From Mesotoga prima MesG1.Ag.4.2 (lineage in GTDB: Bacteria; Thermotogota; Thermotogae; Petrotogales; Kosmotogaceae), in assembly GCF_000147715.2 (NCBI RefSeq), contig NC_017934.1, positions 248,001-312,000 of the forward strand: a stretch of 64,000 nt of DNA, written 5' to 3'. The notes under the pieces were generated by a model. It saw nothing but the letters and a program-made list of their open reading frames with translations. It ran no database searches and was not told the DNA's origin. Positions 1-16,802 of this stretch are shown here, piece after piece (the first letter of the stretch is position 1; the number at the start of each line of letters is the position of its first letter). A program made the position numbers and the translations under genes.

Positions 1-2795
1 AGATGTGCTGCCTGGAAGCAAGGACTACTCTATTAGCAAAGACGGATATGAGGATGCAACCGGGACAGTCAAGGTAGATAGCGACGAGAGTGTCGATGTC
101 ACTTTAATTAAGAAGTCTTATACAATAACGGCAAGTGCGGGGACCGGCGGAAGCATCGATCCTTCAGGTGAAGTGATCGTCGAACATGGATCAAGTAAGA
201 CATTCACTATGAGTCCTTCAGAGGGTTACAGTGTGGAGGATGTTCTTGTGGATGGCGAATCCGTCGGGCCAAGAGATACTTACACTTTCAGCAATGTAAC
301 TTCAAACCACACAATATCTGTTAGCTTCACGACATTGCCGCCCGAGACGTACACAGTAACCTTCAATGTCACAGACTCAGAAGGAACTTTGCAGGGGGCA
401 GAGGTATCCTTCAACGGCGAGTCGAAGAACACGGATGTTCAGGGGAAGGCCGTTTTTGTCAATGTCCTTTCAGGCAGCAAAGCATATACTATCAGTAAAG
501 AAGGCTACAACAATGAAACTGGAACAGTCAACGTAGATAGTGACAAAAGTGTTAATGTCACACTTACTAAGAAGACCTATACAATAACGGCCAGCGCAGG
601 GACGGGTGGAAGCATCGATCCTTCCGGTGAAGTCATCGTCGAGCACGGATCGAGCAAGACATTTACTATCAGCCCTTCAGAGGGTTACAGTGTGGAGGAT
701 GTTATTGTGGATGGTGAATCCGTCGGCCCAAGAGATACTTACACTTTCAACAAACATAACTTCAAGTCATACAATTTCTGTTAGTTTCACGACATTGCCA
801 CCCGAGACGTTCACAGTAACATTCAATGTGAGCGATTCATCTGGAACCCTCCAAGGAGCGAACGTCACTTTCAATGGTGATAGTAAGGCCACAGACGCTC
901 AGGGGAAGGCCGTTTTTACCGGTGTACTTGTTGGAAGCAGGGCGTACACCGTCAGCAAAGAAGGATACAACAACTCAACGGGAAATGTGGACGTTGATGG
1001 TGATGAGAGCGTGGACGTAACACTTACCAAAAAAACATACACCCTTGCAGTGAATATTGTAGGCCAGGGAACGGTAACGAAGAATCCCGACAAGGCGGCA
1101 TACACCCACGGAGAAGTCGTGCAGCTCACGGCCAATCCTGCAGATAATTGGAATTTCACGGGTTGGAGTGGAGATCTTGCCGGCTCGACCAATCCGGAGA
1201 GCATCACAATGAATTCTGACAAAACGGTGACTGCGAACTTCTCAATAGTACAGTACACGATTACCGCTTCTGCAGGAGCAGGAGGTACCATAAGCCCTTC
1301 GGGACAAGTGAAGGTCAATCATGGATCGAATCAGAGCTTCAGCATAAGTGCCAATACAGGCTATGATATACAAGACGTAAAAGTCGACGGAGCTACTGAG
1401 GGAGCTATTGGTTCATATACATTTAGCAACGTGACAAGTGATCATACAATTGCTGCAACCTTTAAGATAAAGACCTACACGGTAAGCGTCTCTTCAAACC
1501 CCGTGGAAGGGGGCAGTGTAAATGGAGGCGGAACATATAATCATGGTGCTCAGGTAAGTTGTCAGGCGACCGCAAATGAAGGATACAGATTTGTCAACTG
1601 GACTGAAGGTGGAGTGGTCGTGAGCGATAACTCTACCTACACTTTCAACATCACTGCCAACAGAAATCTGGTTGCCAATTTCGTCAGGGTCTACTCAGTT
1701 ACATTCAGCGTTGTCGACTCTGAGGGAGTTTTGCAAGGGGCAGAGGTATCCTTTAACGGAGAAACTAAGGTTACGGATGTTCAGGGCAAGGCCGTTTTCA
1801 CCGGCGTTGTCACTGGCAGCAAAGCATATACTGTCAGCAAAGAAGGCTATAACAGTGCAACTGGAACAGTCAACATAGATAGTGACAAGGGTGTCGATAT
1901 CACCCTGGTGAAGAAGACTTACACTCTCACAGTGAGTTCGGTTGGCCAGGGAACGGTAACGAAGAATCCCGACAAGGCAACCTACACACATGGTGAAGTT
2001 GTTCAACTTACTGCTAATCCGGACTCTGGTTGGAACTTCGATTCTTGGAGCGGTGACCTTACTGGATCGACTAATCCCGTAAACATAACAATGGATGGGA
2101 ATAAGTCAATAACTGCTAATTTCAGCGAGATAACATATAGTATAACCTTCAGCGTGAGCGATTCGGAAGGACCTGTTCAGGGAGCAAATGTGACTTTTAA
2201 TAGTGAGACAAAGACGACAGATAATCAAGGGGAAGCCCTATTCACGGGTATCACAGTTGGTGAAAAGCAATACACAGTAAGCAAAGATGGCTATGGCGAT
2301 ATCTCGGGGAGTATCGTTGTTGATTCTAGTAGAACTGTAAATGTTGTTCTGGAGAAAAAGCCTATGATTGAAGTGGTAGACAGCGCTTTCTCAGTGAGCG
2401 AGCCTCTTGAAATATTAGTTAGGGCTCAGAATCTTGGAGAAGTTGATTTCATTGAAATAGTGCTTCAGTTTGATACTGAGTACTTTGGAGATTCGTGGGA
2501 TTTTAGAAGAAAGTTACCTATTGATTGGCAGGTTATTCCAAGCGATCCTGGAAACGGAATCATACATCTTGCTCTTGCCATTACTGGCGGTAAAACGCAA
2601 GTTATAGATGATTTAACGAGTATCGTGTCAATAGAATTGACTGCGAAGAAGATAGGAACCAGCCATATTACTTTCACTAGTTATACCTCTGTGGGTAATG
2701 TTCCTTTCGAGACGAATATTATCACCGCTGAAGGGACAAGACTAAGCGGTTCAGATCTGATACTTGATGAAGGTACAATAACCATCACAAACTAA
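1..2795 (+). pseudogene. Frameshifted, 5'-partial surface repeat protein with C-terminal cohesin-like domain
   Basis: The reading frame is open from the left edge, so the start lies outside the window. Two modules alternate. One is a carboxypeptidase-regulatory/PEGA-like module of about 75 residues (ending near 117, then about 352-570, 811-1035, 1696-1914, 2140-2362). The other is an InlB-type bacterial repeat of about 70 residues (118-342, 580-805, 1036-1248, 1255-1470, 1471-1690, 1918-2133). The last ~140 residues (about 2365-2795) have a cohesin-like pattern: VVDSAF, then FIEIVLQFD, then IVSIELTAKK, ending in a GTITI strand. Relative to the first repeat copy there is one extra A in the CAAAC at 751-755. 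The upstream frame therefore stops at 784 and the downstream frame carries on the same module. It could be a true null allele, a phase-variable site or a sequencing error. Close downstream neighbours carry cohesin-like and dockerin-like domains. Confidence 0.8.
118..822 (+). repeat. Long direct repeats inside the surface-protein gene (two copies, period 459 nt)
   Basis: The stretch from about 122 to 360 recurs from about 581 to 820 with scattered, mostly silent differences. The offset is 459 nt (153 codons), so loss or gain of one unit would keep the frame. The second copy holds the one-base insertion at 751-755. A separate exact 35-bp repeat lies further along the same gene at 1062-1096 and 1944-1978. 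Confidence 0.8.
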
Positions 2796-2814
2796 CTTCT
2801 GAGAGGCGATAATT

Positions 2815-3537
2815 GTGAAGCGAGTAATTAAGATCTGCCTGATTTCAGTATTTATCATTTCAATCATCTCGTTGACCGGATGCATAAAACCAACATTCCA
2901 GGTTGTGGTACAGATAACGCCGGCTGGCGGAGGCAACGTAACAGGGGGCGGAAGTTATAAGAAAGGTGAGATGGTTACATTGAACGCGATTAACTCCGAA
3001 GGTTATCGTTTCCTGCATTGGAAAAGCGACGGTGCTTTCCTTACAGACCAGAACCCATACTCTTTTAGAATTGCGGGTAATGTCAGTCTGGAAGCGGTTT
3101 TTGTTGCTGATGCAGGCGAGATATCGATTGCAGACGCCTATTTTGTTGTTGATGAAGAGAGCCACGTAAAAATAAACGGAGTTGGGCTTGGAGCAGTGAA
3201 TCTGATTGAAGTTGTAATTGAGTATGACCCTAATGTCCTCAGCTGGGAAGGTAGTAGTTGCAGAATCGCTGGCTGGATAACAATTGAAAAGAATCCCTCG
3301 CCCGGAATAGCTCACATAGCCATATCAGGTGCGTCAACCGAGATAAACGAAGAGAAAGAGTTAATTCGTGTGTATCTTTTGCCCAAGAAAGCAGGCATAA
3401 GTGATGTCAAGTTCACCACCTACGAGAGTGAGGGTGGCGTGTTTTTTGAGACAAACTATATCACCGCCGGAGGGTTGAAAAAGACTTATCCAGAACTGGG
3501 GCTTAAGAAAGGTGTAATAACAGTAAATGAAAACTGA
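2815..3537 (+). CDS. Lipoprotein with one InlB-type repeat and a cohesin-like domain
   Basis: 240 residues with a GTG start 19 nt after the previous stop. The signal peptide ends in a lipobox (SLTGC, Cys at about residue 23), so the mature protein should be lipid-anchored. Residues about 29-100 form one InlB-type repeat with the GGGSYKKGE and YRFLHWKSDG motifs. Residues about 103-240 resemble the C-terminal domain of the upstream gene, sharing the IEVVIEYDP strand, an IELT-like strand, FETNYITAGG and a closing GVITV strand. This fits the cohesin beta-sandwich plan. It is probably co-transcribed with its neighbours and may present a docking domain to the dockerin-like protein encoded next. The family call is from pattern only. 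Confidence 0.7.
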   Translation: MKRVIKICLISVFIISIISLTGCIKPTFQVVVQITPAGGGNVTGGGSYKKGEMVTLNAINSEGYRFLHWKSDGAFLTDQNPYSFRIAGNVSLEAVFVADAGEISIADAYFVVDEESHVKINGVGLGAVNLIEVVIEYDPNVLSWEGSSCRIAGWITIEKNPSPGIAHIAISGASTEINEEKELIRVYLLPKKAGISDVKFTTYESEGGVFFETNYITAGGLKKTYPELGLKKGVITVNEN

Positions 3538-3570
3538 TTCTGAGGAATTGACTGATGGGGGCGTGTGACC

Positions 3571-4617
3571 ATGAAAATGTTCAGATATTTTGCTTTTGTT
3601 GTTCTCATGGCGATCTTACTTTCTGGCTGTTACATTAAGCCTTATGAAGAGAACGGTGTAGAGACGAAGTTTGCCGACGACGATATAGTTTTCATACTTA
3701 GGTCCAAAGCTGATGCTATTGAATTGTTAATTGACGAGAAAATAGATTTCTCAACAGTAGTTGTACCTGATGGCTATCTAAAGATTGTCAAATATGTCAA
3801 TGAAAAAACTCTAATTGCTCTTGCAAAGGGGTCAGAGATAAATCGCGGTGAAGAAATACTGAGGATTGAAGGATTAGAAGAAGAAAACCTGATTACTTTG
3901 ATTAAGATATGGGATATAGACGACATTTACTATGAATCAAACGGAACTGACCCAAAATTGCTTGGGGATTTCACAGGTGATGGTCAGGTCGAGGGATTCG
4001 ATTTCATACCTTTTGCTCAGAGCTACGGAAATGCGCTCGGCGCTCCAGGGTATGAAGCAATTTACGACATGAGTTCACTCGAGAATCCTGCAAGCAAAGC
4101 ATTTTCAGGAATTTGGGGAAAGATATTTTCTCAGGAAGGAGTGTCTGACGGAAAGATCGACGGGCCAGACTTTATTGTCTTCGCCAACAATTACGGTTAT
4201 GCCAATCCATATCTCGGAACGTGGACGTTCACTGGAACAATTGACTATAATAGCTCTTCCTTTGGCCAGGTGGATGCAACTGGAAACGGTACTGCCACCA
4301 TTGAATCACTGAACTACAACTTTACAGGCAACGTAACGATGTCATTCGAGGCGGATTACGAAGACGAAAGCGGAAATCCACTTCATTCAGAGATGACAAC
4401 AACGATCAACAATGTCAGTTTTGATTTCGATAATCTTGTAATGGCCATTGACGCGACGGTTGATGATTTCACAGGTTCGGGCAATACGTACGACGTGCGG
4501 TTGAGAGGTGCGCTAAAAACTGTTGGGGATGCGGTTTATGCCCAAGTCCCTTCTGGGGATATCTATCTTCTGAATCCCGAAAGAAGAATCGGAACCTGGT
4601 CTGGAAGCAAACAATAA
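3571..4617 (+). CDS. Lipoprotein with dockerin-like calcium-loop pair and C-terminal beta domain
   Basis: The ATG at 3571 is preferred over the in-frame GTG at 3565 because it sits 9 nt after the GGGGG motif. The signal peptide ends in LLSGC. At residues about 130-210 are two loops of dockerin/EF-hand type. The first, DFTGDGQVEGFD, has acidic ligands at loop positions 1, 5 and 12 and is followed by FIPFAQSYG. The second, ending SDGKIDGPD, is followed by FIVFANNYG and lacks good ligands at positions 1 and 3. The repeated FA-x-x-YG helix ends are typical of dockerin-like pairs. The C-terminal ~130 residues form a beta-rich domain closing in RIGTWSG, shared with the next gene. It lies next to two cohesin-like proteins, so it may be their partner. 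No enzymatic domain was recognised. Confidence 0.7.
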   Translation: MKMFRYFAFVVLMAILLSGCYIKPYEENGVETKFADDDIVFILRSKADAIELLIDEKIDFSTVVVPDGYLKIVKYVNEKTLIALAKGSEINRGEEILRIEGLEEENLITLIKIWDIDDIYYESNGTDPKLLGDFTGDGQVEGFDFIPFAQSYGNALGAPGYEAIYDMSSLENPASKAFSGIWGKIFSQEGVSDGKIDGPDFIVFANNYGYANPYLGTWTFTGTIDYNSSSFGQVDATGNGTATIESLNYNFTGNVTMSFEADYEDESGNPLHSEMTTTINNVSFDFDNLVMAIDATVDDFTGSGNTYDVRLRGALKTVGDAVYAQVPSGDIYLLNPERRIGTWSGSKQ

Positions 4618-4641
4618 ACTTCATCAAAGAAGGTGGAGGTT

Positions 4642-5082
4642 TTGAAGCGACTAATTTTCACAATACTAATTATCACTTTAGTTTTGCTATCTGGATGTGT
4701 TTTCAAGTCTAACCCTGCCGGGTTTGTTGAGATTGCAGGTACTTGGGCATTAGCCGGAAGAGTCGTTTACGGTAGCACAGATGTCTCTGGCACTGGAACC
4801 CTTTATATCACCAGGCAGGAGGGAAGCGATTTCAGTGGAACGGGTTGGTACTTTCTTCTGAGCGCTCCTGTGGAGGGAACGGTATCTGAAAGGCCGGAAA
4901 ATTACCTAGTTATGCATGCAACTGTTAACTATGGAGGGAATGAAAGAACTGTCCTTTTCACAGGGCATGTCCTGGAGGCTGACGATGGAGTGTCAGTAGA
5001 AGATGGAGAGATCTTTCTTGATGACCTTACGAAGAAAATAGGTACATGGACTGGCGAGTGGACGCCACCACCCGGCCAATAG
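4642..5082 (+). CDS. Small lipoprotein, paralogous to the C-terminal domain of the preceding gene
   Basis: The TTG at 4642 is preferred over the GTG at 4633, which lies inside the AAGGTGGAGG ribosome binding site. The signal peptide ends in VLLSGC. The mature ~125 residues look all-beta. They open with a GTWALAGRV strand and close with KKIGTWTGEW, matching the GTWTFTG opening and RIGTWSG ending of the upstream protein's C-terminal domain. This suggests one lipocalin-like or related barrel fold duplicated as a stand-alone protein. It is the last gene of the four-gene surface cluster. The function is unknown. Confidence 0.65.
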   Translation: MKRLIFTILIITLVLLSGCVFKSNPAGFVEIAGTWALAGRVVYGSTDVSGTGTLYITRQEGSDFSGTGWYFLLSAPVEGTVSERPENYLVMHATVNYGGNERTVLFTGHVLEADDGVSVEDGEIFLDDLTKKIGTWTGEWTPPPGQ

Positions 5083-5799
5083 TATCTGAGCCTTCAATCC
5101 AGAACATACATAGGATACGGCAATTAAATCTGTAATTTTAATGCTAGGCTTTCCTAACTTCCATTTTTGACAAAGAACGATCAGATTTGATCGCATTATT
5201 GCAAGTATTGGAGATGGCAAAAGGTGTTCAAAGGCTAGCTGTCTATAAAAGCGAAGCAGTCGATGTCTGTTTCGAAAATTCATTCCTCTAATTCCATTCA
5301 TTTTGGGGTGTAAGCAATCAACAGGGAATCAAACTTTCCTGAGTACAAGCGTATCTAGTTATTTCCTTTCAAAGAATTTCGCAGATCCCATGTGTGCATT
5401 CTTGGTGTGAAATCAAAAGAATGCTATATAAAATTGCCTCTACTCCATATAGCAAATTCATCATACTTCCTTGTTTTTGATGACAATCTAGAATTCTCAG
5501 GAGTTAAATAGTGGATATTATAAGTATGTAAACTTAGAGTAAATAATTCTATATTTACTAGATTTGAATCTTCCCAGAAAATCATTCGTACGTTCTTCCA
5601 CGGATTAATGATTCCTATAATCCCCACAATGATGTATGCATTCATGAGAATTGATTGAATAATGTCGAATTTCGTATTCTCAAAAACTAATCATATGATT
5701 ATATCGAAAGAATAGATCAAATTTAGTAATACTCATGAATGAATCGTATATAATATTTCTGTACACCTGGTTTTTCACTAACCGTCCGGAGGAGATCTT
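5083..5799. other. 717-bp AT-rich intergenic region
   Basis: No convincing gene was found. The longest open frame, a 73-codon minus-strand frame at 5424-5645, lacks a ribosome binding site. A TATAAT at 5749-5754 sits about 45 nt before the next gene without a recognisable -35 and may be its -10 element. A clear GGAGGAG ribosome binding site precedes the ATG at 5800. No terminator hairpin was seen after 5082. Confidence 0.5.
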
Positions 5800-8700
5800 A
5801 TGAGGAGATACAGGAATACAATTCTAATAAGCGTTTTACTTTTCATAGCCTTGATCTTCAGCAGTTGCGTTCCCAGAGTGAACCTATTCACTGTGGAGGT
5901 TGTTTCGGAGCCGGATGCAATTTCGGTTGCCCTTCTAAAAGACATCGAACAGGCGAATTATGAAGCTTCAGATGTCCAGAAAACCCCGCTAGTTCTTAAC
6001 CTTAAACCCCAGGAGACTGTAGTCGTCAAAGTTATAGAAGAAGAACCACTTGAAGAAACTGAGGTTATACATGTTTTCGATGGCTGGGCCGACGGATCTA
6101 AGGCGAATCCAAGAGCAATTACGGCCGATTCGAATAAGAAAGTGGAAATCAAGACAGTGAAGAATGTTAGGGTCTCTATATCAACGAGCCCCAGAAATCT
6201 TGTCGAAGTCGTTGGAAGCGGTTTTTATCCAGTTGATACGGAGCTTGACTTGAGCGCACCTGCTGAAGTTGGAGATTATCACTTCGCTTATTGGAATATT
6301 GATGGAAGTAGAGAATACAGTCAGGAGCTCTCTTTGAAACTCGATGGACCAACGAAGATTGAAGCTGTCTATGAGAACAGACCTCTAAGAACTCTCGAGA
6401 TTGATTCACAACCCACCGGACTGAATATGAGTGTGGATGGCCAGGAAATTCTCACCCCCTACTCTATCAAGTCTGAAGAAGGGGAATCACACACAGTTGC
6501 CTTTCTTCCTCAGGAAAGGGATCTTAGTAATCTCGTTAACGGTACAGACACTAGATACTCCTTCAAATCCTGGAGCGATGGTGGTACAAGTAATCCCCGT
6601 ACGGTATTGCTGAATAGCGATCTATCTTTGAATGCAATTACTGGAATTGAATATCTTACTGTGACTTCAACCGTTCCAGAAGGAATAAGTGAGTTTTCTA
6701 GTGCAGCCTGGAAGACGGCTGGTTCTTCAGTCTCTTACGTTGCTCCCGAAGTCCCGGGCTACATCTTTTCACACTGGGAAGTGGATGGCGAAGATGTGCT
6801 GACTAAAGAGCTTTCTTTGATAGTTGATTCACCGAAGAGTATTGTTGCTAACTACAGTCTTGTAGGGCATGTGCTTTCTTTAGATACCGACCCGTCGGGG
6901 CTGGAAATTCTGATAAACGATAAGACTTTTACTGCGCCCGCTTCTCTGTCTGGCAGTTATGGTGACCTTTTTACTGTCGAAATACCCGAACCTCAAACAA
7001 GAGATGAATCGGAGTTCGTTACAGGAATAGACGCGCGCTACACATTTGGCAGATGGAACGATTCAATAGAGACTAACAAGAGAACGATAAAGCTCGACTC
7101 AGACAAGTCATACACGGCGACAATGGAAATCGAATACCTCGTTGAAACGGGTACAATGCCTGAAGGACTTTCAGAAATCCCAGGCGCAGGATGGAAAGCC
7201 AAAGGCTCTTTTATTTCTTACGAGTCAAATGATTTAATCGGATACACTTTTTCGCACTGGGAAGTTAACGGAGAACGTGTAGACGGAGAGATTCTTGATC
7301 TGGTGGTTGAGAGACCAACGAAGATCCTAGCTGTCTACAGAAACAAGGAAGAATCGACTCTTGAGATAACGTCCAATCCCGAAGGTCTCGTGTTTAGCCT
7401 TAACAACGAAGTCTATTCCGCTCCGAAGAGTTTTGTCTTCGAAAGCGGAACCTCCATCGAGGTTTCCTTCCCAGCTTCACAGGAGAAAGACAATAGTGAA
7501 CAGGTATTGGGAAATGATACAAGATTCCTTTTCTCAAAATGGGCAGATGGATTGGCTGAAAATACCAGAACCGTTGAATTAACCGAAGATATCAGACTTG
7601 AAGCAATTGCAAATACAGAGTATCTAGTGGAGGTGTCATCGGAAACCGCTCAAATCGGAGGAACTGGTTGGTATAGGAAGGGCTACTCTCTTAATATAAA
7701 CGCGCCAGAGGTTTCAGGGTACAAATTTGTTTCCTGGAGTGTTGATGGAGCAAAAGCAGTCAGAAATCCCTTATCTGTAACCGTTGATTCTCCGAAGAAG
7801 ATTGTTGCAGTCTACGAAGAAGCAGTTGTCAGCAACAAGACTCTGACTGTTTCAACTACCCCTGAAGGACTGCTTGTCAAGATTGATGGCAACCAAATGG
7901 TTTCCCCATGCCAGATCACTGCTGCAGAAGAATCCTCACACTCGATATCCACGATTACTCCTCAAGAGAAGGACATTTCAACACAGATCGCTGGCAACGA
8001 TGTCAGATATGTATTCTCCGCTTGGAATGACGGAAGTACCCTAAATACAAGAACTATAGAACTGAACTCCAACCTTTCTTTCGTTGCAGCTTTCGGCGAA
8101 GAATTCAAACTCGAGACAGCGACCCAACCCTCCGGTATAGTTCAGATTGGTGGCACAGGATGGTATCACGATGGCGAGAAAGTTGTATTGAATGCTGCAG
8201 CGGTGGAAGGCTACAACTTCCTTCACTGGTCGGTAAACGGAGTGAAGGCAGGAGAGAGCTCAACTCTGGAGTTCATTATTGATGAGCCGACTGCTGCAAA
8301 AGCAGTTTACAATTCACTTCCAACGATTTCCCTTGAAGATCGAGAGGTTTCCGAGGGCGAAGTATTGGAGTTGCTGCTAAGCGAACATTCGGCAGATGTG
8401 GATGGTGATACGCTCTCTTACTCGCTTTTATCTGGTCCTGGAAGTATTTCAGGCGGAATCTATTCAGTTGACACTAGTGAACTGAATGCGGGACTTCACG
8501 AGATCACAATAGAGGTTTACGATGGCAGAGGTGGGTATGCAGCGGATGGATTTACGATAACTGTGACAGAGCAGAACAACCCGCCAGCCGTTCCGGGTTC
8601 ACCATCGCCCGCAAGTGGTTCGGTCGATCAAGAGTTATCCATAGAGCTTTCCTGGACTTGTTCAGATTCAGACGGCGATGCTCTTGTCTTTGACATTTAT

Positions 8701-10128
8701 TTCGGTTCTTCTTCAAGTCCGGAAAAAGTGGCATCAGATATCCTAGCCAATAACTGGCAGTCTACGAACCTCAGTGAAGGGGTCACATACTACTGGAAGA
8801 TCGTTGCAAAGGACAGTAACGGAGCTACTTCCGAAAGCTCTGTATGGAGCTTCTCGACGAAGAATTCCCTTCCGGCTGACGGGGTCGACAAGGTAGGGCC
8901 CGTTTACATGGGCGATTTATTGCTAATAAGTAACGAAAACCCAGATTGCTATTCTTACGAAAATACGGGTTCCCTGTCTGAGGATTTCGTTCAAACAGCT
9001 TCTTTACCGGACGACCTTCCTCTGGAAGCTTATGCTATGAATCCAATCCTTCCGGAGCCAGAGGGTTTGACACTTGATAAGCTTGTAAAACTCGGGGACA
9101 ATTTTGAGGTTGCAGCAGTTGGAAGCACATCGGAATTCTGGGTCTATAACTTCAAGACTAATACCACCGAGAAACTAACTGCAACCCTTCAATATTCAGG
9201 ATCTAAGTCTGAGATTTGGGTTGAGAATACAGAAGAGATAGGTCAGCAACAAGCCCAGCAGCTTGGTAGCGAGTTTGACGATAGTATATATCCACTTATT
9301 GCTAATTACTTCTACACTCCTTCAGATCTTGACGTAAACGGTAAAGTGAAGATCCTTTGCTTCGATATACAAGATAGTTTTGAGACAACTGGCTCGTATT
9401 ATGCCGGTTACTTTAGCTCGGGTGACCTGTTCAATCATTCAACATCTAACATGGGTGAACTTTTCTATATTGATACTTATCCATCAATGCACTATCCTAA
9501 GACAAACCCAATTGATGTTTCCAGGGCTTTCTCCACAATTGCACATGAGTTTCAACACATGGTGAACTACAACAGAAATGTTCTTGTTGAAAAGGGTTCC
9601 ACAATGCCAACATGGCTAAACGAAGGGTTATCTTTGGCTGCTGAACATCTTTACTCTGGTGTTCTTTCCAGAAGGATCTCGTACTTCAATAGTTCTCCTA
9701 GGATCCGAGACGGACACTCAGTTCTGTATTGGGGTGACAATGGAGATACTCTATCCAGCTATGCTTTATCATATATCTTCCTTCAATACATAAGAGCTCA
9801 GGCAGGCAATGATGCAATATTCAGAGATATTCTTCTTAGCAATGACAATTCATCAAATGTCATCGTTTCTGCGTTAACTAAGTATGGTGTTACGAAATCC
9901 TTAGGCGAAATTCTTACTGATTTCAGGATTGCTCTGGTTCTCAAAAACGGCTCAGGACCCTATGGATTCCGAGGCGACGGTGATTTCAACTCAATAGCGG
10001 TTCAGTTCTATTCTGGAGGATCAAAGGAATTACGAGGGGGAAGTGCTGTTTACAAGTCAATCAACCCGAGTTTTACCGATCCGGAGAATTCAGGCGATTC
10101 TATTGCATATGTAGGGATAACGAAATAG
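5800..10128 (+). CDS. Giant repeat lipoprotein with C-terminal M30-like metallopeptidase domain
   Basis: 1442 residues. The signal peptide ends in IFSSC (Cys at about residue 23). About five tandem ~150-residue units follow. Each joins a PEGA-like half (SxPxGLxxxxDG, then an N-x-T/V-R-Y-x-F-x-x-W-x-DG-x-x-x-N-x-R-T motif) to an InlB-like half (G-x-GWYRKG, YxFxHWxVDG, then PxKIxAVY). A cadherin-like domain (about 850-925) and a fibronectin-III-like domain (about 927-1025) come next. The C-terminal ~400 residues contain HEFQH at 1249-1253 and WLNEGLS with Glu1275, the zinc-site pattern of M30 (hyicolysin-like) peptidases. Predicted role: cell-surface zinc protease held away from the membrane by a repeat stalk. 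The motifs are visible; the substrate is unknown. Confidence 0.8.
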   Translation: MRRYRNTILISVLLFIALIFSSCVPRVNLFTVEVVSEPDAISVALLKDIEQANYEASDVQKTPLVLNLKPQETVVVKVIEEEPLEETEVIHVFDGWADGSKANPRAITADSNKKVEIKTVKNVRVSISTSPRNLVEVVGSGFYPVDTELDLSAPAEVGDYHFAYWNIDGSREYSQELSLKLDGPTKIEAVYENRPLRTLEIDSQPTGLNMSVDGQEILTPYSIKSEEGESHTVAFLPQERDLSNLVNGTDTRYSFKSWSDGGTSNPRTVLLNSDLSLNAITGIEYLTVTSTVPEGISEFSSAAWKTAGSSVSYVAPEVPGYIFSHWEVDGEDVLTKELSLIVDSPKSIVANYSLVGHVLSLDTDPSGLEILINDKTFTAPASLSGSYGDLFTVEIPEPQTRDESEFVTGIDARYTFGRWNDSIETNKRTIKLDSDKSYTATMEIEYLVETGTMPEGLSEIPGAGWKAKGSFISYESNDLIGYTFSHWEVNGERVDGEILDLVVERPTKILAVYRNKEESTLEITSNPEGLVFSLNNEVYSAPKSFVFESGTSIEVSFPASQEKDNSEQVLGNDTRFLFSKWADGLAENTRTVELTEDIRLEAIANTEYLVEVSSETAQIGGTGWYRKGYSLNINAPEVSGYKFVSWSVDGAKAVRNPLSVTVDSPKKIVAVYEEAVVSNKTLTVSTTPEGLLVKIDGNQMVSPCQITAAEESSHSISTITPQEKDISTQIAGNDVRYVFSAWNDGSTLNTRTIELNSNLSFVAAFGEEFKLETATQPSGIVQIGGTGWYHDGEKVVLNAAAVEGYNFLHWSVNGVKAGESSTLEFIIDEPTAAKAVYNSLPTISLEDREVSEGEVLELLLSEHSADVDGDTLSYSLLSGPGSISGGIYSVDTSELNAGLHEITIEVYDGRGGYAADGFTITVTEQNNPPAVPGSPSPASGSVDQELSIELSWTCSDSDGDALVFDIYFGSSSSPEKVASDILANNWQSTNLSEGVTYYWKIVAKDSNGATSESSVWSFSTKNSLPADGVDKVGPVYMGDLLLISNENPDCYSYENTGSLSEDFVQTASLPDDLPLEAYAMNPILPEPEGLTLDKLVKLGDNFEVAAVGSTSEFWVYNFKTNTTEKLTATLQYSGSKSEIWVENTEEIGQQQAQQLGSEFDDSIYPLIANYFYTPSDLDVNGKVKILCFDIQDSFETTGSYYAGYFSSGDLFNHSTSNMGELFYIDTYPSMHYPKTNPIDVSRAFSTIAHEFQHMVNYNRNVLVEKGSTMPTWLNEGLSLAAEHLYSGVLSRRISYFNSSPRIRDGHSVLYWGDNGDTLSSYALSYIFLQYIRAQAGNDAIFRDILLSNDNSSNVIVSALTKYGVTKSLGEILTDFRIALVLKNGSGPYGFRGDGDFNSIAVQFYSGGSKELRGGSAVYKSINPSFTDPENSGDSIAYVGITK

Positions 10129-10155
10129 AGTTTAGATTGATTATTATGACTAGCA

Positions 10156-10187
10156 AAAAAAAAGAGGGCTAGTTCTAGCCCTCTTTT
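10156..10187. terminator. Bidirectional intrinsic terminator
   Basis: The hairpin arms AGAGGGCTAG and CTAGCCCTCT are flanked by an A-run and a T-run, so it should work for both convergent genes (ending at 10128 on plus and 10204 on minus). Confidence 0.9.
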
Positions 10188-10203
10188 TGCTTTTGCAGAT
10201 ACC

Positions 10204-13200
10204 CTACGGCAGCCTCAAGAACCCATTATCATGTGTCCCGTCAACATAGTTCTGATTAATTGCGTCAAGAACATCATTCAGTTCTGAGGCGGTAAATGAA
10301 CTTCCCAAACCGGCCAAATACCTGTTAGCCTCGGCAAGGACCTCAGCAACTGTCCAGTCTTTGAATATTCCAGTCACGATAACCAAATCCTTAAGATTAT
10401 AGGAGCTGGTACAGAAATTCGGGTCGTACAAATCAAATCCAACACTGAGAGTCAAAGCAACTGCCTGACCTGCAAGAGTTCCTGCACTAGTTGCTGTTGG
10501 GTCTGTATAATTCTGATCGAGCGACCCTGATGTTCCACCCGCAGGCAAGAAGTTCTCGATTGATGCTGAAGTTGTGAAAATAGCTTTGTAACCAGTTGCA
10601 TCACCAATGACCAATCCACTGGGGAATGTGGAAGCGAAATTCGCATCCCTATAGGTTCCAGGATTATTTCCTGAAGCGGATGAACCCCACCCACCTTGAG
10701 TTTGTGTCCTGAAACCTCCTTCGGTGGGTGTGTAAATTGTCACTGTAGCATCATCGGTTGCGTAATAAGCGTCTCCCGTGTCTTCTTTGTATAGCGTCGC
10801 AATATTGTGAAGAGAATACGGTGAATTTTGGAAGTTTGCTGAGTCATTAGTTATATCGACTGGATAGTGAAAAGCTGCTTCGCCATTACCATCTAAATTG
10901 CTGCTATCGATATGTACTCTCCAGGTAAGAGGCGTGCTCACAACAGTAAACCCGTGCAGCTTGAATTCGTTTAGATTAGTGAACTCATCCACAAGATATG
11001 CACTTTCATTAAGATAATCTGTGGAAGTTGGGCTTTCGGGAATATCAGATGTACTGCTGTCTGTGTCTGAATAATCAGTCACAGCTGTTCCGGTAGCGAT
11101 TACAGTTACTGATACTGGACTGCTCAAAGAGGATCTAACAAAGGTGAATGTCCTATCAACTGATTCGCCCGGGTTTAGACTGACTGAATCTGAGGCTGAA
11201 ATCAATGTCTTTGTTTCCCCGTCAAATTCAACCTCCAGAAGCACTTCAGTAAGAGGCAAATCACCAACATTTGTAGCAGTAGCAATGCCAGTGATACTGT
11301 AAGTGGCGGTTCCTGTTGTTTGACCTTCTATACGGGAAACAATTAACGAATAATCGAAACTGGCAGTTTGGCCATCTGCAAGAGTTGCATGTTCCGGCTC
11401 AACTGATTTTTCCAGATCCCATTCATATGGAATCTCGTTTGTCCAAAGAACTTCATGAGTTACTGATGCGTCTATCGAACCGGTTTCTACACTTGGATCC
11501 GGAACAATTATTACTACAGTTTGTGAGTCGTCTTTTTTCTCCTTTGTGTCTTTCTCAGTGAGTGTAGCATTGTTTGTCAAGAAATAAGTGCCTTGAGCCG
11601 CTTCGATATTTTCTATCCTAATGCTGTAAACGTATTTAGTGTTGGTACTTATATCTGTGGGCCAGGAGGGGTGATTCACAATATCAGTTATGCTAAAACC
11701 GGTTACCAAATTTCCGATTTCATCTTCGATATTGTCCAATAGATCATCTACACTCGCTTCTTCATCGTACTTCTTTGTGATGTTTGGATAATGAGGTCCC
11801 GAATGATTACTTGTGTCCTGCGTGGGCAAAGAACCATCTGCTTTGACATAAGCGGTGACCCTGTAGAACTTGCCTTCTATAGGTGTAAAACCAGGTATTG
11901 AGAAAGGATATGTATGTTCTTCACCACTAGAGAAGGAGTTCTTGGAAGAAGTGTCAACCGAGACTGTAGCTCCTTCTGTACTCCAATCGCTACCATTAAT
12001 ACTTGATTCAAGCTGCACATGGATTTTCAGGTTATCAGCCGTAGTAATTCCCGTGCTGGTAAACAAGACTTCCACCTCTCCGGTTAGGCTATGAACATCA
12101 GAGCCTGAAGCGACGGGAGTCTCAAGCCTTGTTGCAGAAAGTGTATAGACAAATGTCTGAGAAGCTCCTTGAGTAAGCGTCACGCTATCAGGAAGAACAC
12201 GCTTTTCGAGCTCCCAATCATACTCAATTTCCCTGTTCCACACAATTTCGTGCGTTGTGGTGGCTTGAAGGGTTCCTGAATCCTCACTTCCCCCAATCAC
12301 GATAATCTGCACTATGGCGTCGTCGACTCTCTTATCTTTTGTGTCTGACTCGGTAAGAGTTGCCATGTTTGTCAACCAGTATTCTCCTGCCTGAAGCTGC
12401 TCAATGCTTCTAATAGTTACGAAATATGTCTTCGTAGCCAGTGAGGTGTCGGCAATATTCCATGGCCAACCCGCACTAGAATGATTCAAAACTTCAAAAC
12501 CCGTAGGAGGGAACGGTTGATCTTCAACTGTGGCATTAGCATCCAAAGGTTGCATTTCAGCGGGTTTGGGCATCAAGAAAGTCTCATACACAAATGTTGT
12601 AGGGAAATTATCCGAAGTTATCTTCATCGATACCCTAAAATAATCTCCTTCATTACCACTGAATGAAAAAGAAAAGGGAACACTTTTGTATCCAGGATCA
12701 ATGTCCCCGAGGCTTCTCATTTTCGGGCTGCCGATATCCTGCCATGTCGCCCCAACCGACTTCTGTAGCTGCAGTTCCACCTGAACGTTCTTGGCAGTTG
12801 CATCGCCTGAATTAAGAACGCCGGCTGAACCAGAGATTGAAAAAGTTGTGCCTTCCTTGAGAGGCAGCCTCTTTGCCTCAAGAATGTATTCAATCTGCTT
12901 CTCAGTTCCACTGCTCGAGGGGAAATTGGGAACTACTGTTGGACTTGCCGTTTTCGTCAGTATCCAGTCATATTCTCCTGATTTGCTTCCTTTAGCATCT
13001 CCATCGATGAATCCATTCAGCCAGGGATCTTTCTGCCCATTCTCGTTGAAATAGGTAACGTGGAACTTGCATACTCCATGTTCATATTTGAAAAGTTTGG
13101 AACTGAAGACGTTTTCCTCCACTTCCTTTTCCAGAAAAAGATGAACGCCAAAGTAAAAAACCGTTGTATCTTCTTGAATGAAAGACTCTAAACTTTTTCT

Positions 13201-13617
13201 GTAAGTAAAGTTAGCCGACTTGGGATTGACAATTACGTGATCATCAAGATCATCCTTTTCAAGTTCACCATCACCGTTTTTGTCCAGTCCTTGCACGCTC
13301 AGTGAATAACCAAGCCACAGTTCCGTTAACATCCAATCACTCTCGAAAGTGTGATTTACAACTAACTCTTTTGTATCATAGTCAACCCAGTAAGTCATCT
13401 TACCAATGAATTCACCGTCAACTTCTACAAACGAATCTGGAGATCGAATGAAGAAAACATATTCTCCAGAATCTTCCTGAGTCAAGAAAATGATTTCTTG
13501 CGTGTATTCCACAATTCCAAGATCTATAACCTCTACTTTCTTCTGAGGCTGAAAACAACTGCTCAAGAACACCGCCAAAAGTAAAATTGCCGTTGAGAAC
13601 AAAAAAAGCCTTTTCAT
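10204..13617 (-). CDS. Large surface lipoprotein with DUF11-like repeats
   Basis: 1137 residues with an ATG start behind AGGGAGGTG. The signal peptide ends in FLSSC. The body has three related stretches, each opening with an H-E-I/V-x-W-x-x-E-I-x-Y/D-W-x-L-E-K motif followed by a DUF11/Ig-like beta region. They alternate with segments sharing a 'YFLTNNATLTEKDTK' type motif. The last ~170 residues form a distinct module starting TQTQGGWGSSASGNNPG, with the FLPAGGTSGSLDQ and LAGQAVALTLSVGFD motifs seen in diverse bacterial extracellular proteins. No catalytic site was recognised. Likely a structural or adhesive surface protein; its substrate or partner is unknown. It is transcribed alone, convergent with the M30-like gene. 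Confidence 0.7.
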   Translation of the reverse strand: MKRLFLFSTAILLLAVFLSSCFQPQKKVEVIDLGIVEYTQEIIFLTQEDSGEYVFFIRSPDSFVEVDGEFIGKMTYWVDYDTKELVVNHTFESDWMLTELWLGYSLSVQGLDKNGDGELEKDDLDDHVIVNPKSANFTYRKSLESFIQEDTTVFYFGVHLFLEKEVEENVFSSKLFKYEHGVCKFHVTYFNENGQKDPWLNGFIDGDAKGSKSGEYDWILTKTASPTVVPNFPSSSGTEKQIEYILEAKRLPLKEGTTFSISGSAGVLNSGDATAKNVQVELQLQKSVGATWQDIGSPKMRSLGDIDPGYKSVPFSFSFSGNEGDYFRVSMKITSDNFPTTFVYETFLMPKPAEMQPLDANATVEDQPFPPTGFEVLNHSSAGWPWNIADTSLATKTYFVTIRSIEQLQAGEYWLTNMATLTESDTKDKRVDDAIVQIIVIGGSEDSGTLQATTTHEIVWNREIEYDWELEKRVLPDSVTLTQGASQTFVYTLSATRLETPVASGSDVHSLTGEVEVLFTSTGITTADNLKIHVQLESSINGSDWSTEGATVSVDTSSKNSFSSGEEHTYPFSIPGFTPIEGKFYRVTAYVKADGSLPTQDTSNHSGPHYPNITKKYDEEASVDDLLDNIEDEIGNLVTGFSITDIVNHPSWPTDISTNTKYVYSIRIENIEAAQGTYFLTNNATLTEKDTKEKKDDSQTVVIIVPDPSVETGSIDASVTHEVLWTNEIPYEWDLEKSVEPEHATLADGQTASFDYSLIVSRIEGQTTGTATYSITGIATATNVGDLPLTEVLLEVEFDGETKTLISASDSVSLNPGESVDRTFTFVRSSLSSPVSVTVIATGTAVTDYSDTDSSTSDIPESPTSTDYLNESAYLVDEFTNLNEFKLHGFTVVSTPLTWRVHIDSSNLDGNGEAAFHYPVDITNDSANFQNSPYSLHNIATLYKEDTGDAYYATDDATVTIYTPTEGGFRTQTQGGWGSSASGNNPGTYRDANFASTFPSGLVIGDATGYKAIFTTSASIENFLPAGGTSGSLDQNYTDPTATSAGTLAGQAVALTLSVGFDLYDPNFCTSSYNLKDLVIVTGIFKDWTVAEVLAEANRYLAGLGSSFTASELNDVLDAINQNYVDGTHDNGFLRLP

Positions 13618-14205
13618 TACAACACCTCCCTAAGAAACGAAAACCCACCCCAAAAATGACAAGCTAATCGGTCGATCAAAGTTATCTAGTCTCATTCTAT
13701 ATCATTGGGGGAAGAAAATCATACGAACGATACACTTTAATAGGTAATTTTACAGTTACTCAAAGATGAATGGGACATTAAGATCATTTTGATTTGAAAA
13801 ACACGTCCTTTTCTCGGTAAAATGAGGTAATGGTTACTTTTAGCGCCACACAGTGCCATCTATGCAATTTGCGAGTAGTCCTCAATGAGATGATCGGTGA
13901 GAAAAGAATAACGGTTAATCGCACACATCGTCAGCATGTAATAAACAATCGATGGACATAATCTAATACTACAATATGAACATATGACTTTGTGATAGAT
14001 TGCATAAGCTGATTTCAGCAGCTCAGTATAGAAGATTGTTGACTTAATGATGGAGAACATTATAGCGATTTCCCGTTATCGAACTGCAGAATGTTGGTAT
14101 CGTTTTTGTCAGTCTTAGTGTGTTATTTCACGTTATTCAGCGAATGAAAAAGGCAAGTATCTTAGCTAATTCTCAATGAATAATAGTGAGATTCTAGAGA
14201 AGCTT
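13618..14205. other. 588-bp intergenic region
   Basis: It separates two minus-strand genes. The first ~20 bases hold the AGGGAGGTG ribosome binding site of the gene ending at 10204. The rest is AT-rich with stops in all frames. I see no RNA gene, repeat or clear promoter with both elements. Confidence 0.4.
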
Positions 14206-16275
14206 TCATCGAGCGGAATAAATACCGAAAAGGGCAATATCAATCAAACCAGATCCAACTGAATCGTCATTATCGAAGTCGCAAAGAGTTGAAAGCATAT
14301 CCCAGGTTTCGTCACCATATTTTGTGAAGTACTTCTCGAAGAAGATTTGATGATCAGACCCATCGAATAGTCCATCATTGTTGATATCTGCAGGATTGGT
14401 TTTACTGTCGATGAAACTCTCCATAAGACTACCGTCAGAATACTCAACGGTTAGAAACGCGCTCTCAAGAATCGATGCCTTTGAGTTCCCACTAGACAAA
14501 ATGGTAACAACTGCTCCTGGAAAGAATTCATCCGATTTAACAGAAATCAGTGAAAGCTTTATCTGAACGCCGTCGGCAGAGCTAGCTATTTCTCTTCGAG
14601 TTTCATCAAACCTTTCACTGACTATGATTTCATCAATCTGGACACCGTCCAATTCTAATGACAGCAGGACAGAAGCGATTGGTGTTTCAGTTTCGATAAG
14701 CTTGAGAGCCAAAATTCCATTTCCGTTTCCACTAATAACCGTATCGAACAACACGAATTCCGTCTTCCTTGAGCCCAAATCAAAATGGATCTCATTGTCG
14801 CGATGGGAAATCGATAAAAGCTCTAGTCCACTTAGAGATTCATCATACCAGTTTGAGTTAGGGGTTGTTTCTGAGCCGAATGATAAGTTATTTGATGAAC
14901 CAGGATAAGGGTCGCCGTCGTCTCCCCTGTTCTCGCGCGATGAGGGATCCATCAGGTCATCCCTTCCGTCGGCTTGAACCAGATAGACCTGCTTGCGCTC
15001 TCCGCTATTCCCGTAAACGGCATCGTCGATATGATATATGAGGAGACCTTCTCCCGGGAGGGCGTAGTCAAAACCGAATTTCGTTCTATTTTCGATGAGG
15101 AAGTATTCCTCCGGTCTGCCAATATTAGAGAACTTAAGAAGCCTGCCACCGATCTTCACATCTTCGAGAAAGAAATCTCCAGAAAGTCTAGAAATCTCTA
15201 GCGGTTCAAACCAGCCCAGTTTCGCCTTGGACCAAGCCGAGAAGTGGGCGGGCATATCCCCCGGTCTATCAACATAGTTCCAGCAACCGTAAGCCATCAT
15301 TCCCCAGTATCCGATTCCCCACGTTGCCTCGGAATAGTCATAGAGGTCTGGCAGGCCAAAAAGATGACCTGTCTCATGTGCCATTACCCCAATTGTCGCA
15401 ATTCCTTTAACGGGATCTCCCCCATTCTCCCTCGGCCAGTCAACCCTCTCCGGCTGAATTGTGAAGAGATCTGCGGTTACTCCATCATTCGTCTCGTAAT
15501 CGAACAATCTCGACTGAAAAGACCAGATATCTAGCTGATCTACAGAGAGTTCTCTCCCCATTCCCTCGTGAATAACGATTATCATATCGACAACCCCATC
15601 ATCATTATTGTCATAAAGGGAGAAGTCGATATCCTTGTCGGCTTTTGAAATAGCTTCCCTCACGAGTTCGAATTCATTTTGTGAATAATAGGCCTTTGAT
15701 TTATCGGCAGTGTACCAGCCGTATACTTCTCCTGACAGATCAACTGAACCGTTAGACACTTCACTATAATAGTCTCTCATAGAACCAAAAGGAGCGAGCT
15801 CAGGGTATGATGAGAAGATTATCTCTTCAAAGTCTTTTACATGATAAGTATGGGGGTAATCGGGGTAGTCAATCAGTATCACCGGTATTTTGATAGTCCC
15901 TTCTGTAGACACCGCGGCGTCTCGAAATTCAGGACCACTCTGTGTACTAAACTTCAGTGATTCGAGAAGCTGCCGGGGTCCAAACGAGGGAATGCCAATA
16001 GGCTGGTCTATCCCTTTCAGGAGATCTGATCTCTGTATCTCACCACCGACAACGACTCCATAATGCCAGAAACGGCTTTGAGGATCTTGCTTAAGAGGTC
16101 TTCCGTATAGATCCAGGATAAAGTTTCGATACTCATCGCCATACTGTCTGAATTCGATTCGAGTGCCGTCAGGTTGATAAGCTGTAATCACTCCACCGAA
16201 ACTGGGCGCTCCAATGAGAACCGCCGAAAAAAGAACAGTGGCGATCATGCATAGAAGGGTGAATCTGCCGATCAT
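14206..16275 (-). CDS. Secreted M6-family metalloprotease with C-terminal dockerin-like domain
   Basis: 689 residues with an N-terminal signal peptide that has no clear lipobox. The catalytic zinc motif HETGH lies at residues 300-304 and continues LFGLPDLYD, the extended HExxHxxGxxD form of M6 (immune inhibitor A-like) peptidases. The last ~63 residues hold a dockerin-like pair. Loop one is DINNDGLFDGSD, with acidic or Asn ligands at positions 1, 3, 5 and 12. Loop two begins DFDNDDS and carries a small insertion. The start codon overlaps the upstream stop as ATGA, so translation is coupled to the cohesin-like lipoprotein at 16272-16802. This pairing suggests the protease is secreted and then docked on the cell surface by its neighbour. 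The family is clear; the docking is inference. Confidence 0.85.
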   Translation of the reverse strand: MIGRFTLLCMIATVLFSAVLIGAPSFGGVITAYQPDGTRIEFRQYGDEYRNFILDLYGRPLKQDPQSRFWHYGVVVGGEIQRSDLLKGIDQPIGIPSFGPRQLLESLKFSTQSGPEFRDAAVSTEGTIKIPVILIDYPDYPHTYHVKDFEEIIFSSYPELAPFGSMRDYYSEVSNGSVDLSGEVYGWYTADKSKAYYSQNEFELVREAISKADKDIDFSLYDNNDDGVVDMIIVIHEGMGRELSVDQLDIWSFQSRLFDYETNDGVTADLFTIQPERVDWPRENGGDPVKGIATIGVMAHETGHLFGLPDLYDYSEATWGIGYWGMMAYGCWNYVDRPGDMPAHFSAWSKAKLGWFEPLEISRLSGDFFLEDVKIGGRLLKFSNIGRPEEYFLIENRTKFGFDYALPGEGLLIYHIDDAVYGNSGERKQVYLVQADGRDDLMDPSSRENRGDDGDPYPGSSNNLSFGSETTPNSNWYDESLSGLELLSISHRDNEIHFDLGSRKTEFVLFDTVISGNGNGILALKLIETETPIASVLLSLELDGVQIDEIIVSERFDETRREIASSADGVQIKLSLISVKSDEFFPGAVVTILSSGNSKASILESAFLTVEYSDGSLMESFIDSKTNPADINNDGLFDGSDHQIFFEKYFTKYGDETWDMLSTLCDFDNDDSVGSGLIDIALFGIYSAR

Positions 16276-16802
16276 CTGACGGCCACCTCAAGAGTTGGTG
16301 AAAGTGTCTCAATATTCACAGTCGATAGATCATTATCCAGAGCGTAATTCGAAATGATACTCAAACTGCCGTTCTCACTGGCGCTAAATATAATTTCAAT
16401 AAAAAAATCCTTTCTGACTTCTTCTTGCTCATCGTAAGGGAAAGCCCCGTGAATAATTACCATTGACTGGATATGGCTTCCAGCAATCAAGGTCAAGCAA
16501 TCCAGATTTGATTCTACGTCCGTTATCTCGACTCCTCCAGAGGCTTCTAGCACTATTTCGAAAACATAGACCTTTTCAAAATTCTTTGCAATTAGTCTGG
16601 TTGAAGAACTTGAACCTTCTTGGACTGTGATAATCGATCTCTCAAAAGCTAATTCAACTTCTTCCGACGGCTTCTTTACAAACCAGCAGCCGGAGGTCAG
16701 CAGCAAAAGCGCAGTTAAGAGGACGAAAAGGCGAAAAACATTATTGAATTTCTTTAAGTATTTGCTCGCAAATGACTCACTACACATAGGATAATTATAC
16801 AT
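16272..16802 (-). CDS. Small lipoprotein with cohesin-like domain, coupled to the M6 protease
   Basis: Up to 176 residues. The hydrophobic stretch ends in LLTSGC, a lipobox. The ~130-residue mature part runs VELAFERSIITVQEG, then VYVFEIVLEASGG, then FFIEIIFSASENG, and ends with a TLEVAV strand. This is the same order of strands as the cohesin-like domains at 2365-2795 and 2815-3537, though more diverged. The start is uncertain (ATG at 16802 or 16787) because neither has a good ribosome binding site, and a TATAAT on this strand overlaps 16794-16799. The ATGA overlap with the dockerin-bearing protease gene makes it a candidate surface anchor for that enzyme. Confidence 0.65.
   Translation of the reverse strand: MYNYPMCSESFASKYLKKFNNVFRLFVLLTALLLLTSGCWFVKKPSEEVELAFERSIITVQEGSSSSTRLIAKNFEKVYVFEIVLEASGGVEITDVESNLDCLTLIAGSHIQSMVIIHGAFPYDEQEEVRKDFFIEIIFSASENGSLSIISNYALDNDLSTVNIETLSPTLEVAVR

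Follow-up and report, generated by a model that had tools for sequence, protein, structure and literature searches.

Two sets of non-cellulosomal cohesin-dockerin partners are probably encoded in a 64,000-nucleotide stretch of the Mesotoga prima MesG1.Ag.4.2 genome (here called the window), an interpretation drawn from sequence to which we assign a probability of a little over 0.6. We propose that three lipoproteins, encoded by genes A, B, and C, would supply the cohesins, that the products of the neighboring genes D and E would supply the dockerins, and that the E protein, a protease, would be tethered to the cell as a result. Mesotoga belongs to the family Kosmotogaceae of the phylum Thermotogota. 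Few natural protein pairs bind as strongly as cohesin and dockerin, and most of what is known of them comes from cellulosomes; examples outside cellulosomes have a long record in the literature, but with no clear job attached. The window corresponds to G000:C1:248001-312000 of a genome available as 2 contigs, the chromosome of which measures 2,974,229 bp (PMC4603820).

The first two cohesins reside in adjacent genes on the forward strand. Gene A (positions 1 to 2795 of the window, + strand) encodes a large lipoprotein with InlB-type and carboxypeptidase-regulatory repeats and a C-terminal cohesin (2358 to 2792, +), which was located with a local cohesin hidden Markov model (HMM) and a family profile. 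The 5' end of this gene lies outside the window, at about -445, and the reading frame is shifted near positions 745 to 784 in this assembly, for which sequencing error, decay, and phase variation are all conceivable explanations. Orthologs of gene A are open, with lengths of 1086 aa in genome G003 and 1078 aa in genome G009. Gene B (2815 to 3537, +) encodes a lipoprotein, as judged by its lipobox, with one InlB-type repeat and a C-terminal cohesin (3112 to 3531, +) identified through the local cohesin HMM and through PDB and Pfam profile searches. Its Pfam matches are PF18998 (E = 1.1e-14) and PF00963 (E = 0.035, a weak match that falls below the Pfam cut-off; E = 0.013 for the isolated domain). 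The A and B cohesins share 34% identity, and the A domain matches the local HMM with an E value of 7e-33, as a member of that model by construction.

Single-sequence PDB searches with the gene B domain and the gene E tail returned nothing significant, and a search of the whole M. prima genome with PF00963 yielded no match at an E value of 0.001, so family-specific profiles were needed. Iterated profiles assembled a local A/B-type family of 31 domains from neighbors in Mesotoga and other Thermotogota. When a 13-sequence profile of A/B-type homologues was used, the top matches were solved cohesins from the PDB (best E = 2.3e-9), and 10 of the 13 homologues match PF00963 (best E = 4.7e-8). On profile similarity to known cohesins, the A/B family is thus a predicted cohesin family. 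This agrees with the original prediction that A and B carry cohesins, and the coordinates and gene calls of that prediction were also correct on rechecking.

Directly after these genes, gene D (3571 to 4617, +) encodes a further lipoprotein, again with a lipobox, that consists of an N-terminal "half" module, a dockerin (3940 to 4209, +), and a C-terminal domain of unknown function. The half module was considered as a cohesin, which a profile comparison did not support (probability of 0.9%). Loop 1 of the dockerin, at about 3967 to 4002, reads D135-x-T-x-D-G-x-V-x-x-x-D146, while loop 2, which reads D168...D195-G-x-I-x-x-x-D202, is interrupted by an insertion of ~23 residues that separates its positions 1 and 5. 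All 12 D homologues have Asp at positions 1 and 12 of loop 1 and at positions 1, 5, and 12 of loop 2, and the calcium-binding positions are thus conserved around this long insert. Individually, the D and E dockerins score below the Pfam cut-off. Nevertheless, 8 of the 12 D-family members match PF00404, and profiles of the D-type and E-type dockerins reach solved dockerins with E values of 2.9e-6 and 6.6e-7, respectively. The dockerin-like loop pairs first noticed in D and E are thus, by their two calcium loops and their profile similarity, predicted type I dockerins.

Several other genes for lipoproteins or secreted proteins occur in this part of the window. A small lipoprotein is encoded 3' of D at 4633 to 5082, with synteny kept; its relative in genome G009 has weak similarity to D (24%, E = 9e-5), which suggests that the small lipoprotein could share a relationship with a portion of D. 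The gene at 5800 to 10128 encodes an InlB-type repeat lipoprotein with a C-terminal Peptidase_MA-like domain and an HEFQH motif, and it is a further candidate surface protease, with neither a cohesin nor a dockerin. At 10204 to 13617 lies the gene for a secreted repeated-domain protein, which has lengths of 1103, 1137, 1700, and 2376 aa among relatives.

The A-B-D gene order is kept in genomes G002, G003, G007, and G009, even as D falls to about 34% identity. More broadly, genome-wide profile searches of 101 relatives recovered 53 A2-type cohesins and 67 A3-type dockerins, and M. prima has exactly two of the former and one of the latter (D-type), encoded by three consecutive genes. The two modules co-occur in genomes (P = 7e-8 across the 101 genomes), and 51 of the 53 cohesins lie no more than 6 kb from a matching dockerin, with the remaining two at contig ends. 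Where the cohesin is in a gene or module separate from the dockerin, it is on the strand of the dockerin in 37 of 38 cases. In other genomes, cohesin-ending and dockerin-bearing lipoproteins alternate. As a separate observation, three consecutive genes in genome G030 (L056:3019-12322) encode, in order, a protein with a C-terminal cohesin, one that has a dockerin at its N terminus and a cohesin at its C terminus, and one with an N-terminal dockerin, which is a possible daisy chain. Also, locus L115 (G053:C64) encodes several large proteins in a row, each with a pair of dockerin-like loops at the C terminus or close to it; these differ from the other members of the family and may have come from another source.

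The second set of partners is on the reverse strand. Gene E (14206 to 16275, - strand) encodes a secreted protein that is, based on its catalytic domain (PF05547, E = 1.1e-23; TIGR03296, E = 3.3e-58) and HExxH zinc motif (HETGH at residues 300 to 304), a predicted M6 metalloprotease. It ends in a cohesin-like module followed by a dockerin (14209 to 14403, -; residues 625 to 689), of which loop 1 is canonical and loop 2 is ~2 residues longer. Full-length matches to this dockerin tail were found in genomes G003 and G010 only, and a contig scan with the tail found one true relative, the UBA9910 Kosmotogaceae genome, of which a 6114-bp contig matches G010. Gene C (16272 to 16802, -) encodes a small cohesin-like lipoprotein. 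It overlaps gene E by 4 bases: the ATGA reported initially (16272 to 16275) is confirmed, and a 4-base overlap also occurs in G003 and G010, which makes three genomes in all with the C-E pair. Identity of C to its orthologs is 55% in G003 and about 21% in G010.

Whether the C domain (16275 to 16670, -) is cohesin-like, as was originally claimed, is answered differently by different methods. It has no Pfam match, and its AlphaFold2 model, built from a two-sequence alignment, is of low confidence and without a fold match. However, the local cohesin profile detects it in an HMM search (E = 0.03 with Z = 1000; 0.007 for an ortholog) and aligns with it in hhalign (P = 1.7e-5 over 107 colinear columns), in a test where five beta-sandwich control families reached a probability of at most 0.8%. 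As a single sequence, C also outscores all 918 of 918 control windows. We treat C as a candidate cohesin. The missing matches for C, together with the lack of a sequence match for the cohesin-like module of E, are what would be expected if the domains of C and of the lipoprotein linked to a second protease (see below) were generic beta-sandwiches and the loops unrelated calcium-binding motifs. We consider this very unlikely, given that A, B, D, and the E dockerin have significant profile matches, that C scores above every control window, and that four members of that second lipoprotein family match PF00963.

The cohesin-like module of E itself (14416 to 14775, -; residues 501 to 620), which the original prediction overlooked, was recognized with AlphaFold2 and Foldseek. 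The model, built from a two-row alignment, is of moderate confidence (pLDDT of 57 to 84 over most of the module), and its top Foldseek matches are cohesins (E = 3e-4, TM of about 0.5), including the Archaeoglobus fulgidus structure 2xdh. At the sequence level, neither hhalign nor control-window scoring detected a match between this module and the local cohesin profile. The presence of a cohesin-like module within the protease raises self-docking as an alternative: the E dockerin might fold onto the module of its own chain and form a closed C-terminal cap, which would leave C as a chaperone, an inhibitor, or a protein with some other role. The module stands directly before the dockerin in E and its orthologs, and 13 of the 53 A2-type cohesins elsewhere form a same-chain tandem, no more than 60 bp upstream of a dockerin in the same gene. 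We nonetheless judge docking in cis to be unlikely. Many dockerins, including that of D and those of papain-type proteases in which the catalytic domain runs straight into the dockerin, have no cohesin in cis and still have a cohesin lipoprotein as a neighbor, and proteins that do have a cis cohesin usually adjoin a separate cohesin gene too.

Those papain-type (C1A) proteases provide a parallel to the C-E pair. A search with PF00404 revealed a further M. prima dockerin at the C terminus of a C1A protease, the gene for which overlaps an upstream gene for a lipoprotein with a cohesin-like C terminus (G000:C1, about 2119.6 to 2122.5 kb, - strand; L066:3662-6482). Such a lipoprotein gene is directly upstream of the C1A-dockerin gene at 24 of 24 testable loci, which come from several families of the class and show the unit to be conserved across Thermotogota. 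The C-terminal domain of these lipoproteins is, by profile comparison, distantly cohesin-like: 4 of 14 match PF00963 (best E = 7.4e-5), hhalign against the cohesin profile gives P = 4.5e-4, and PDB cohesins are reached at only 0.05 to 0.2. Together with the A2-type counts, these loci lend good support to the original idea that dockerin genes adjoin cohesin lipoprotein genes. In genome G043, the order is reversed, with an M6-dockerin gene followed by an overlapping lipoprotein gene, and hhalign gave no support for that lipoprotein as a cohesin. In other families, small lipoproteins are encoded adjacent to dockerin proteins of ~900 aa; they were likewise considered as cohesins, and hhalign gave no support for them either.

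Adjacency of this kind might instead reflect shared regulation and ancestry of surface genes, if these modules were all-purpose parts for surface adhesion that do not pair specifically with the product of the adjoining gene. A, B, and D are indeed found among repeat-rich surface proteins, and a mirror-tree test of co-evolution in 19 C1A pairs was negative, in that, once the protease domain is accounted for, cohesin and dockerin distances do not covary (partial Mantel r = 0.045, P = 0.37). On the other hand, cohesin genes are almost always beside a dockerin, with the other genes of the locus not being cohesins, and protease families that are unrelated to one another share the two-gene arrangement. 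We therefore regard the adhesion explanation as distinctly improbable.

Anchoring signals differ between the two sides of the protease pairs. A PS51257-type lipobox is present in A, B, C, D, and the C1A-linked lipoprotein, and by this signature A, B, C, and D are predicted bacterial lipoproteins. The lipobox is absent from both proteases, E and C1A, which have signal peptides of the non-lipoprotein type. The idea of a lipid-anchored receptor that holds a secreted protease, as first put forward, accordingly suits two pairs, C-E and the unlinked C1A pair: in each, the protease signal peptide is non-lipoprotein and the partner has a lipobox. It does not fit A/B-D, where both sides are lipoproteins; because D is a lipoprotein itself, anchoring is not what D needs, and the receptor picture is limited to the protease pairs, for which tethering by a lipoprotein is the best-supported interpretation of the sequence data.

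In the mechanism that we propose, C and E would be made in step from their translationally coupled gene pair, and the E dockerin would dock into the C cohesin in a one-to-one, calcium-dependent manner, so that the protease would stay on the cell envelope. B, and A too where it is intact, would dock D and thereby join repeat-rich surface lipoproteins to one another. The C1A pair would repeat the protease arrangement elsewhere in the M. prima genome. The likely benefit would be that the products of protein breakdown are kept close to peptide uptake.

The cargo of dockerin proteins in relatives is suggestive of a role in using proteins and peptides, not cellulose. For instance, a dockerin protein in genome G039 carries a caspase-like peptidase domain, and two dockerin proteins in genome G011 have SBP_bac_5 oligopeptide-binding domains and are encoded just upstream of an OppB-type permease gene. 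Further dockerin proteins in relatives carry propellers and beta-helices, so the cargo is mixed. The G011 genes form an operon-like run (L057:2785-17747) of a cohesin lipoprotein, two SBP_bac_5 lipoproteins, and opp-type permease and ATPase genes; each of the two SBP_bac_5 lipoproteins contains a half-module, a cohesin, a dockerin, and SBP_bac_5, and one is 2913 aa long with leucine-rich repeats. In M. prima, by contrast, the opp operon (L117, L003) is located about 8 kb ahead of gene A and includes a binding protein of the ordinary kind. Tentatively, and at somewhat below even odds, we suggest an ancestral system across Thermotogota in which dedicated lipoproteins would each use a cohesin-dockerin bond to recruit one secreted M6 or papain-type protease and, in some lineages, oligopeptide-binding proteins as well, for cell-bound peptide harvesting.

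These loci share their two interaction modules with cellulosomes, although the enzyme cargo identified here is proteases. A cellulosome was considered and rejected, as we found no multi-cohesin scaffoldin (the two A2-type cohesins occur one per protein) and no glycoside hydrolase cargo. In keeping with the non-cellulosomal assignment made at the outset, the dockerin proteins found in the M. prima genome are D, the M6 protease, and the C1A protease. Cohesins and dockerins outside cellulosomes occur in archaea and bacteria, such as A. fulgidus, in hosts that are not thought to be cellulose degraders (Peer et al. 2009, as cited in PMC9012536). The M. prima modules resemble those systems as they are summarized there, and differ from them in comprising lipoprotein and protease pairs, with genes that often overlap and that are conserved across a bacterial phylum. 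In ANME archaea, dockerins are found on oligopeptide-type substrate-binding proteins, which resemble the G011 SBP_bac_5 dockerin proteins, but ANME proteins have up to five cohesins, as opposed to the one per lipid-anchored protein here (PMC9012536). In Clostridium thermocellum, an S8 protease bears a double dockerin, dDoc_0689, that prefers the cell-bound scaffoldin ScaD, and a dockerin-cohesin bond is presumed to keep this enzyme on the cell surface (Chen et al. 2024, reviewed in PMC12484212). That enzyme differs from the present ones in its protease family (S8, as opposed to M6 and C1A), in having a double dockerin where these have a single one, and in its host, which makes cellulosomes; the partner of the present proteases is a lipoprotein that the adjacent gene encodes.

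A literature search that covered sources other than the Peer et al. 2009 survey found no description of the conserved two-gene format or of dockerins in Mesotoga. The M. prima pairs are a variant of a known non-cellulosomal theme, with a conserved two-gene format. Since the partner can be read from the adjoining gene, the cargo is recognizable, and the arrangement recurs across a phylum, function is directly testable here, with small, isolated pairs from a cultured mesophile as the material. The pairs would also add candidate parts for protein engineering. That relatives across the phylum have kept this pairing suggests a way, apart from cellulose, to hold secreted enzymes on the cell.
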